A stretch of DNA of 33,159 nucleotides, taken from positions 1-33,159 of the forward strand of contig SLRC01000039.1 of NCBI GenBank assembly GCA_007131175.1, in the 5' to 3' direction. The stretch is from Syntrophomonadaceae bacterium. GTDB lineage: Bacteria; Bacillota; Dethiobacteria; DTU022; UBA8154. Made by a program: the position numbers and the translations under genes. Shown here one piece after another: positions 6,494 to 16,832 of this stretch (positions are counted from its first letter, which is position 1; each line of letters begins with the position of its first letter). Under the pieces are notes generated by a model. That model ran no database searches. It saw only the letters and a program-made list of their open reading frames with translations, and was not told the origin of the DNA.

Positions 6494-6525
6494 AAAGTGC
6501 CCCTTAGGCACTTTCAACTTTTTTC
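6494..6525 (+). terminator. Probable terminator of the B12-radical SAM gene
   Basis: AAAGTGCC (6494-6501) pairs with GGCACTTT (6507-6514) across a five-base loop, starting two bases after the stop codon, followed by TCAACTTTTTT. The U-run is interrupted near the stem, so efficiency is uncertain. Confidence 0.6.
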
Positions 6526-6553
6526 CGCGCCGTTAAATGTTTGTTATATTTGC

Positions 6554-6587
6554 AAAAAAGAAGCAGGGGCTGGGCCTGCCCCTGCTT
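6554..6587 (-). terminator. Minus-strand intrinsic terminator
   Basis: AAGCAGGGGC (6561-6570) and GCCCCTGCTT (6578-6587) form a perfect 10-bp stem with a 7-base loop. Read on the minus strand it is followed by CTTTTTTG, a good U-tract; on the plus strand no such tract follows. It is the first clear stop for transcription coming leftward from the selD/SASP cluster, which would then run antisense through the structured RNA. Confidence 0.6.
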
Positions 6588-6717
6588 AAGATATTTTGTA
6601 GGAGGTTAGGTTTTAGCAGATTTGAAATATTGAAACTATTTGTATTATATAGAATAATTTGCTCTTTGGCAAGAGCAATTTTAAAAATATTTTTACTTTT
6701 TTCATGCCAAAGAATCC

Positions 6718-6746
6718 AATACAGTTAGCCGTTTTATTTCTAAAAT
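6718..6746 (+). promoter_or_regulatory. Weak candidate promoter for the structured RNA
   Basis: AATACA (6718-6723), a 17-base spacer and TAAAAT (6741-6746) would start transcription near 6753, just at the foot of the 6754-6786 hairpin. The -35 matches consensus at only three positions, so this is a tentative placement. Confidence 0.3.
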
Positions 6747-6789
6747 TTGGGAGTAATAGATTCCCTGTCATTTGGTTAATCTATTAGGG

Positions 6790-7218
6790 AAGAAAGGTCC
6801 ATAATGACCGGGCCAAGATTGCGGTAAGGTCAATCAGGCTTTATCGCAGTCGGCCAAAGGCTGATAGCAGGTCTATACGGCTTGTTATCAGCCGGCGGGA
6901 AGATCATGTTATGTTCCGCCATGGCCCTGGAATGGTCAGTGAAGACCGTTTTAGGGTCAATAAGGAATATAACATGGTCGAGCGCAGATCAGTATAAGTT
7001 CCCGTTATGAAAAGATATTTTCAACCTGTGTAAACACATTGAGGATAAAGGAGACCGGTAATGGTCGGAAGATCATTGCCGGTTTCCCCGGGGATTTATA
7101 CTGGTCGAGCCAAGGTTACGGCAGGTTCAAAATGCGGTCTGTTACAGTCAAAGGATTGTAACAGGCTGTAAAGAGGATTTGCCGTAGCCGGAAGCAAAGG
7201 TCATTATGGGCTTTTCTT
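6790..7218 (+). ncRNA. Large multi-arm structured RNA, family not recognised
   Basis: A 20-bp helix (6790-6809 with 7199-7218, two G-U) encloses five arms. P2: 6817-6827/6841-6851, 11 bp, plus GGCC 6811-6814/6852-6855. P3: 6859-6869/6883-6893, 11 bp. P4: 6902-6917/6964-6979, 16 bp, carrying 6923-6937/6944-6958, 15 bp with loop AGUGAA. P5: 6987-7004/7089-7106, 18 bp, carrying small hairpins near 7008-7038 and P6, 7050-7063/7074-7087, 14 bp. P7: 7114-7128/7175-7189, 15 bp, then a 4x4 A-rich internal loop, then 7133-7146/7157-7170, 14 bp. Every imperfect pair in these helices (about 23) is G-U on the plus strand, none A-C, which indicates selection on a plus-strand RNA and not on DNA palindromes. 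P2 and P3 share 13-base loops; P6 and the P7 tip share 10-base loops. A pyrimidine-rich tail (7211-7229) follows. It lacks tRNA-like ends and does not look to me like RNase P, SRP or tmRNA. Confidence 0.8.
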
Positions 7219-7440
7219 TTTACTTTTTCTGCTAGAAAGGTGTCCTCCGATACGGCCCGTTTGCCGGGAAGTTAGGCCTCCCCAACCTTTTTCTTTGACT
7301 TCATCCATAAGACCCAATTCAAGGGCAACCTCGTTTTTAAGCCGATCTTTCAATGCATCCTCTTTATTAACCTTTTTTTTCTTTGGTGTCAAATAACTAA
7401 CCCCCCATTTTTTTCTTATTCTTGCCGGGGGGTAAAACAT
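7204..7440 (-). CDS. Small acid-soluble spore protein, alpha/beta type
   Basis: 78 residues if the ATG at 7440 is used. The core LKNEVALELGLMDEVKEK followed by GWGGLTSRQTGRIGGHLSSR matches the two conserved blocks of alpha/beta SASPs, which coat and protect DNA in dormant spores and are cut by the Gpr protease at the first block. The C-terminus is lysine-rich. The start is uncertain: the ATG lies 10 bases after the selD stop with only a poor GGAA site. A TTG at 7392 preceded by GGGGGG gives a 62-residue protein beginning MTPKKKKVNKED, closer to the usual SASP length. The last five codons and the stop form one strand of the closing helix of the opposite-strand structured RNA. Confidence 0.82.
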   Translation of the reverse strand: MFYPPARIRKKWGVSYLTPKKKKVNKEDALKDRLKNEVALELGLMDEVKEKGWGGLTSRQTGRIGGHLSSRKSKKKSP

Positions 7441-7450
7441 TTATGCAAAA

Positions 7451-8500
7451 TCATTCCGTTAAAAAGATTTGCCCGCCGCCACGGTCACTGATTCTTCCGA
7501 TAATGGCAGCATAAACCAAACCTTTTTCCCGAAGCAACTTTATAGCCCGCTCCGCTTCAGTTTCTTTAACAGCCATCAGGAGTCCTCCTGAAGTCTGGGG
7601 ATCGCAAACTATATCCAACCACACTTCATCGATCTTTGCCACATTGCTGATTCTGTCCGCAAGATAATCTCTGTTAGTCTTCGCCCCCCCGGGCACAAGG
7701 CCCATTTCTGCCAGTTCTTTTGTCCCCTCCACAAGCGGCAAGGAAGGTATATGGATAATGGCACTCAAGTTGCTCCCTGCAACCATCTCGGCAGTATGTC
7801 CCGCAAGGCCGAAGCCAGTGATATCTGTACATGCTTTTACGTCCACCTGGCGAGCCACATCCGCCCCATTTTTATTCAGTTCCACCATCCAACGGGTTAT
7901 TTCTGCCATGGCATCGGGAGGGGCCATCTCTCCCTTTTGGGCAGTGGTTATAATACCTGATCCAAGCGGCTTAGTAAGAATAAGTAAATCTCCTGCTTCT
8001 ACCGCTCCCTTGGTAAATATTTCCATAGGAGAAATTAGCCCTGTAACGGCCAGTCCATACTTGGGCTCATCATCGCTAATGGTGTGCCCACCAACCAGCA
8101 GAGCCCCTGCTTCCGCTACTTTTAGAGCACCTCCCTTCAGTATCTCCACCAGGACATCCAGTCCCAATTTGCGGCAGGGAAAGCATACAATATTCATTGC
8201 CGTAAGCGGACGGCCACCCATGGCATAGATATCGCTTAAAGCGTTTGCTGCAGCAATTTGTCCGTAAGTAAACGGATCATCCACCACTGGCGGAAAAAAA
8301 TCAACTGTCTGGATAAGCGCCTGCTCATCAGATAAACGGTAAACAGCAGCATCATCAGGAAATTCAGTTCCCACAAGCAGATTCTCATCTTTTTGTACCG
8401 GCAAAAGTGGAACAATGCTGGCCAGGTCCCCTGGCCCCAGTTTGGCTGCTCAACCTGCACTGGTGGAATAATGTGTCAGTTTAATCTTATCTGCTGCCAT
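7451..8500 (-). CDS. selD: Selenide, water dikinase, selenocysteine-containing (SelD)
   Basis: Makes selenophosphate from selenide and ATP, the selenium donor for selenocysteine and selenouridine. The full gene starts at the ATG at 8500 and has an in-frame TGA at 8450-8452 (codon 17) inside HYSTSAG-U-AAKLGPGDL. This is exactly where SelD enzymes carry the catalytic Cys or Sec, followed by the essential lysine (K20). Read through, the product is 349 residues, normal for the family. A truncated call starting at 8404 would lose the active site. Downstream motifs are typical: DDAAVY, AAANALSDIYAMGG, CTDITGFGLAGH and DPQTSGGLL. A SECIS hairpin follows the TGA. The start is six bases after the thiF-like stop, so translation is probably coupled. 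Confidence 0.95.
8420..8452 (-). promoter_or_regulatory. Bacterial SECIS element in selD
   Basis: Directly downstream of the TGA (8450-8452), GGCCAGG and CCTGGCC form a perfect 7-bp stem with a GGA loop (8420-8436). The loop lies 21-23 bases after the TGA and begins with G. Both features fit the published bacterial SECIS rules (guanine in the first two loop positions, loop roughly 16-37 bases from the UGA). It would bind SelB during UGA decoding. Confidence 0.85.
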
Positions 8501-16732: not shown

Positions 16733-16755
16733 GCAAAATCCCTCTTTTTTATCAG

Positions 16756-16826
16756 GCTCGCCGTTCAGGGCAATCTTGTTTCATTTTGAAAGATATTTAA
16801 AACCCTGTCCGTGCGGCTAAACAAGC
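16756..16826 (-). ncRNA. Probable L21 leader (autoregulatory)
   Basis: Between promoter and rplU, the minus strand has GCCG (16814-16817) and CAGGG (16803-16807) pairing with CCCTG (16766-16770) and CGGC (16760-16763), separated by an AT-rich loop of about 30 bases. The position and the CCCTGAACGGCGAGCC 3' strand resemble the L21 leader of Firmicutes as I recall it. Confidence 0.6.
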
Positions 16827-16832
16827 TCAATC

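Follow-up and report, generated by a model that had tools for sequence, protein, structure and literature searches.

What is the element at positions 6790 to 7218 of the 33,159-nucleotide stretch of Syntrophomonadaceae DNA analysed here (the window), where an earlier note, made from the sequence alone, had described an unrecognised large structured RNA and assigned it to the plus strand? The overall claim held, and the RNA is larger than described. In particular, the MFE fold of 6780-7230 on the plus strand has a free energy of -256.7 kcal/mol, compared to -125.8 ± 5.3 kcal/mol for 100 dinucleotide shuffles (z = -24.7). The minus strand of the same region reaches only z = -8.5, and the plus strand is therefore identified as the RNA strand, as the note had concluded from its G-U pairs. 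All of the elements that the note had named, including the five arms, lie where it had placed them. Its closing helix of 20 bp extends to 23 bp, its approximately 138 base pairs become 171 within 6790-7218, and its approximately 23 G-U positions become 31 G-U pairs. The junction strands are purine-rich, as it had claimed, and are also among the most conserved columns of the homologue alignment. The elements of the RNA are as follows.

6787 to 6809, plus strand: 5′ strand of the closing helix, pairing with 7199-7221 over 23 bp (fold).
6811 to 6855, plus strand: arm 1, 4 bp + 15 bp, with a GGUC/GGCU wobble module flanking the hairpin loop (fold, pair counts).
6859 to 6893, plus strand: arm 2, 15 bp, with a GGUC/GGCU wobble module flanking the hairpin loop (fold, pair counts).
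6894 to 6901, plus strand: purine-rich junction strand GGCGGGAA, near-invariant alignment columns.
6902 to 6979, plus strand: arm 3, 16 bp + internal loop + 16 bp (fold, pair counts).
6980 to 6986, plus strand: conserved junction strand GAGCGCA, invariant TCGAG..AGA alignment columns.
6987 to 7106, plus strand: arm 4, 18 bp, with a variable side branch at 7016-7047 and a hairpin at 7050-7087 (fold, pair counts).
7107 to 7113, plus strand: conserved junction strand GAGCCAA (alignment columns).
7114 to 7189, plus strand: arm 5, 15 bp + internal loop + 17 bp (fold, pair counts).
7190 to 7198, plus strand: conserved junction strand of the GGAAGCAAA type (alignment columns).
7199 to 7221, plus strand: 3′ strand of the closing helix (fold).

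About 80% of the RNA's bases are paired, and the alignment shows hairpin loops that are short and variable in both length and sequence. The 3′ strand of the closing helix, together with a U-rich run extending to 7228, may, by inference, serve as an intrinsic terminator. Two inverted repeats lie between the RNA and a radical-SAM gene: one at 6561-6587, which resembles the terminator of that gene, and another at 6663-6713.

The fold is under selection. When 60 relatives were searched at the DNA level, about 20 homologues were recovered, with 68-91% identity. From 20 of them, RNAalifold calculates 148 pairs, 81 of which have at least one two-sided compensatory change; in the closing helix, 11 of the 20 alignment pairs have one. 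Counting pairs across the same 20 homologues, 97.7% of cells are paired and 333 cells show a two-sided change, compared to 91 ± 9 when shuffled and at most 48 when the alignment is slid. The compensatory selection claimed beforehand is thus confirmed overwhelmingly. Moreover, in 72 further homologues from the phylum, none of which was used in building the covariance model, arms 1 and 2 have 98.5% of their cells paired and show 488 two-sided changes (104 when shuffled, fewer than 100 when slid), at 25 of 32 pairs. The pairing percentage is inflated, because the structure was used to fit this alignment. Compensatory changes across independent homologues, a criterion for a new RNA family, are therefore present. 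Among the 20 class homologues, no open frame longer than 92 codons is stop-free through any of them and none is common to them; a coding sequence was rejected and the RNA is considered noncoding because the stop-free frames differ. Overall, the locus is a structured RNA under selection.

A mobile element or a DNA-level structure without an RNA gene (an attachment site, a cruciform or a decayed repeat) is all but excluded as an explanation. Tandem copies in one genome would support it. Against it, the genome of the window (a 2.16-Mb draft with a completeness of about 77%) has only one copy of the RNA, whose G-U pairs are conserved strand-specifically and which has its own promoter. Further, a search for the RNA in phages, plasmids and viral contigs gave no match, and an origin from these sources was rejected on that basis.

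A feature absent from the earlier note is that many of the G-U pairs are conserved as wobbles, beyond mere tolerance. Nineteen wobble pairs are retained in at least 17 of the 20 class homologues, usually within a module that reads G-U, any pair, U-G and then C-G next to the loop. In sequence terms, 5′-GNUC-3′ lies opposite 5′-GGNU-3′, placing a G-U and a U-G around one free pair. Across the 72 phylum homologues, arm 1 retains the G-U in 66 and the U-G in 65, with a middle pair that is GC in 39, AU in 13, CG in 13 and UA in 5, and that shows a two-sided change in 32; arm 2 retains its wobbles in 64 and 66. A G-U pair mutates readily to G-C or A-U and yet these pairs are kept; the wobble geometry itself is therefore selected, not merely tolerated. 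It is possible, by inference, that the geometry is kept for a protein or tertiary contact.

The RNA family extends throughout the phylum. A covariance model (R1) that covers arms 1 and 2 matches 39 of 98 class genomes, or 38 of 98 without one weak match (G039), which was excluded from later counts. A second model (R2), built from 37 class sequences, finds the RNA in 132 of 398 genomes sampled evenly from the phylum, about a third, with E-values down to about 1e-22 outside of the class. When 110 RNAs were folded, an automatic count found exactly five arms in 88. Arm lengths are repeated with almost single-nucleotide precision: arm 3 is often 75-77 nt (many homologues from the phylum have 75 nt and about 31 bp) and arm 5 is often 74-76 nt (74 nt and 30-32 bp in most phylum homologues). 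Named records with the conserved core motif are mostly drafts of Dethiobacter-like or unplaced Bacillota; two are labelled Desulfovibrio, and these labels look wrong, an inference from the agreement of both records with relatives of the same family or order. A pattern match in Porphyromonadaceae (L089) had no covariance-model match and was taken as chance. Six genomes (G386, G467, G240, G108, G170 and G129) have 2-4 RNA-model matches each, which are possible paralogues; some of the weak second matches, however, arise where the model of arms 1-2 picks up arms 4-5. A tandem RNA pair about 140 nt apart was observed in a genome labelled Dethiobacter alkaliphilus (L026 8725-9724; L083).

No known family accounts for the RNA. 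Using cmscan against Rfam 15, nothing was found over the RNA in the window at the gathering threshold, and against Rfam, nothing over it in 6500-7450 up to E = 5 or, with a limit of E = 0.1, in 13 homologue loci from the phylum. A known Rfam family, including OLE, ROOL, GOLLD, HEARO and raiA, was accordingly rejected for lack of a covariance-model match, and the note's failure to recognise any known ornate RNA is upheld. Elsewhere in the window, at 16744-16828 on the minus strand, there is a leader of ribosomal protein L21, which scores 39.2 bits against Rfam RF00559. The RNA is similar to OLE, ROOL and GOLLD in its size, complexity and unknown function, and to OLE in its anaerobic Bacillota hosts; it differs from them by its sporulation-type promoter, the lack of an Rfam match and the absence of any viral or prophage association in our searches. 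The raiA motif (ModT) is likewise a structured Bacillota RNA and one paper on it discusses sporulation (PMC11706538), but it is about 205 nt in cryo-EM work and the five-arm RNA has no Rfam match.

The promoter type, the link to sporulation and the phylum-wide range were all absent from the earlier note. The promoter has the following parts.

6752 to 6783, plus strand: forespore-type (sigma-F/G-like) promoter, 15.5 bits, position-specific match.
6752 to 6760, plus strand: -35 region AGTAATAGA of this promoter.
6774 to 6783, plus strand: -10 region GGTTAATCTA of this promoter.

The window's promoter is one of the matrix training sequences. In 36 class homologues, the RNA is preceded by the motif nnATA-spacer-GGnnAnAnTA, with 4-13 nt between the end of the motif and the RNA. 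When a matrix trained only on the class was applied to 73 phylum loci, the median score was 12.8 bits, compared to a shuffled median of 1.6 and a shuffled 99th percentile of 12.0; 53% of these loci exceed that percentile, and the matches lie mostly 8-12 nt from one common reference point. The sigma-F consensus of Bacillus is GYATA, about 15 nt, and GGNNANANTA. As judged by sequence, the RNA's promoter motif resembles this consensus more than that of sigma-A. According to a promoter map of Clostridioides difficile, the SigF and SigG consensus sequences overlap and SASP genes have SigF-like promoters (PMC7438776).

The same promoter type is shared with other genes. Minor SASP genes, several of them adjoining the RNA, have it with scores of 17-19 bits, compared to a null 99.9th percentile of 15.4, and hutP genes mostly lack it. 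As a control, the promoter was mostly not found at the classical sigma-F gene spoIIR, with start codons as chosen. A pattern scan of two genomes yielded 16 matches, compared to 7 for the reversed pattern, which is suggestive only; among the 16 are two genes for SASPs and one for a regulator that was called AbrB-type on the basis of its sequence, without a family search, and only part of the genome-wide matches point to obvious sporulation genes. The window has its own SASP gene, which is convergent with the RNA and whose last codons overlap the closing helix.

7204 to 7392, minus strand: lysine-rich alpha/beta-type SASP gene (PF00269, 5.6e-9; TTG start at 7392, TAA stop at 7204).
7417 to 7446, minus strand: SASP promoter GCATA-N15-GGCAAGAATA, of the same type as the RNA's (15.0 bits, pattern match).

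Beyond it, at 7451-8500 on the minus strand, selD is an apparent selenoprotein gene with an in-frame TGA (8452-8450) in the motif SAG-U-AAK.

The RNA also co-occurs with sporulation genes. In the phylum sample, SpoIVA is found in 129 of 132 RNA-bearing genomes and in 207 of 266 genomes without a detected RNA (both 129, RNA only 3, SpoIVA only 207, neither 59; Fisher p = 1.7e-8). Two of the three genomes with the RNA and without SpoIVA are only 75% and 61% complete. Within the class, genomes at least 90% complete give a similar table (both 24, RNA only 2, SpoIVA only 16, neither 21; p = 5.5e-5), and the well-sampled SpoIVA-negative genera (g22, g23, g24 and g27) have no convincing copy of the RNA. 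These tests are uncorrected for phylogeny, and the p values are optimistic because related genomes are not independent. The 207 SpoIVA-positive genomes without a detectable copy imply that the RNA is inessential to sporulation generally, or that diverged copies were missed. From the promoter and the co-occurrence, we infer that the RNA is likely transcribed in the forespore, in the absence of expression data.

Alternatively, it could be an OLE-like general stress or housekeeping RNA whose promoter likeness and co-occurrence derive from shared ancestry. The lack of expression data and the many sporulators without a detected RNA are compatible with this explanation. However, the promoter's fixed position across distant families and the RNA's absence from the well-sampled SpoIVA-negative genera make it unlikely.

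The RNA's neighbours vary between families and include SASP, SpoVT, SpoIVA, SpoVR and DUF444 genes. At three loci (L310, L311 and L312; families f51 and f131), spoIVA and the RNA are separated by about 1 kb or less. Another neighbour is hutP, and on one rival explanation the RNA would act together with HutP or be targeted by it. HutP is an antiterminator that binds RNA, and its gene follows closely downstream in many loci. In support, hutP is located 0.1-1.1 kb downstream on the same strand in 12 loci, and the junction strands contain NAG triplets. However, genera g1, g7 and g8 have the RNA without a PF09021 match (in genomes up to 98% complete), family f6 has RNA loci without a nearby hutP, other hutP loci have no RNA, and the hutP promoter is ordinary and sigma-A-like with or without the RNA. 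Compared to the HutP-hut mRNA system, adjacency is common, but the RNA persists without hutP and has a different promoter class. The partnership is largely refuted by the co-occurrence and promoter tests and is very unlikely; the adjacency is best regarded, by inference, as inherited gene order. A HutP-family gene was observed downstream of the RNA at L008, L009, L010, L011, L013, L015, L016, L019 and L020, and many RNA-free HutP loci have a divergent zinc-ribbon-like gene upstream.

What, then, would the RNA do? Its role in spores is inferred throughout. In the proposed mechanism, a stand-alone noncoding RNA of about 430 nt (transcript approximately 6790-7228, plus strand) would be made in the forespore by sigma-F and/or sigma-G, and folds into a rigid star with five arms of near-fixed length around a conserved junction. 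The repeated GNUC/GGNU wobble modules mark helix ends next to loops; at these modules and at the junction, the scaffold would bind multiple copies of a protein from the forespore or the spore core, and the resulting ribonucleoprotein would aid spore maturation or dormancy. This scaffold is favoured because of the predicted forespore transcription, the fixed geometry and the repeated wobble modules. Protein binding, taken by itself, is inferred with rather more doubt than confidence, and no partner protein has been identified; the SASP encoded beside the RNA in one family can be called no more than a candidate. For the mechanism as a whole, a forespore-transcribed rigid scaffold that builds a ribonucleoprotein in the spore, the balance tips slightly in favour, its function being inferred.

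The main rival, which remains possible, is an RNA-only multimer (a cage or filament) held together by RNA-RNA contacts without an essential protein, whose tertiary or quaternary contacts would be made by the wobble modules and the A-rich loops. Arms of fixed length but free sequence point to an exact geometry, the wobble modules adjoin loops, and some genomes have more than one RNA copy; OLE, ROOL and GOLLD assemble as RNA multimers (PMC12286853), which also supports it. Against it, the hairpin loops vary and the homologue alignment has no obvious kissing-loop complementarity.

A second rival is a base-pairing forespore sRNA, similar to Bvs196/S357 of Bacillus, whose loops or junctions would pair with sporulation mRNAs. 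Bvs196 is a 294-nt forespore RNA under sigma-F/G that is reported to bind the spo0A and sspN-tlp mRNAs (PMC9147052). The predicted control is the same as that of Bvs196 and, as with CsfG/Bvs196, the five-arm RNA is a stand-alone RNA gene in spore-formers with predicted sigma-F/G control (PMC9147052); it meets their promoter trait by a sequence motif only. However, Bvs196 folds with -82 kcal/mol, compared to about -257 kcal/mol for the fixed star of about 430 nt. With about 80% of bases paired, short and variable loops, and no conserved unpaired seed in the alignment except the purine-rich junction, this explanation is unlikely.

Returning to the scaffold reading, large structured RNAs and forespore sRNAs both exist as kinds, but to our knowledge no RNA combines a five-arm architecture, predicted forespore control and a phylum-wide range, and the family is rated new for that reason. 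The literature that was searched contains no description, though an earlier report is possible, as most subscription journals and preprints were not covered. This is probably a large bacterial spore RNA that had not been listed before. A bolder reading, for and against which we find the case evenly poised, is that of a new and ancient RNA class dedicated to the endospore, a forespore-made five-arm scaffold of fixed geometry that would use its repeated wobble modules for recognition and assemble an unknown spore-core ribonucleoprotein across much of the phylum.

These wobble modules provide a clean case of selection on wobble pairs as such, where a fixed G-U and U-G flank a freely varying pair. 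Moreover, a large and conserved RNA that is present in about a third of the sampled phylum genomes and not listed in Rfam 15 or described in the papers searched would be a major missing RNA class, and a cultivated relative carrying it would make it directly testable. If its expression is forespore-specific, a structured RNA would be connected with how spores form or stay dormant, a field with few known RNAs.
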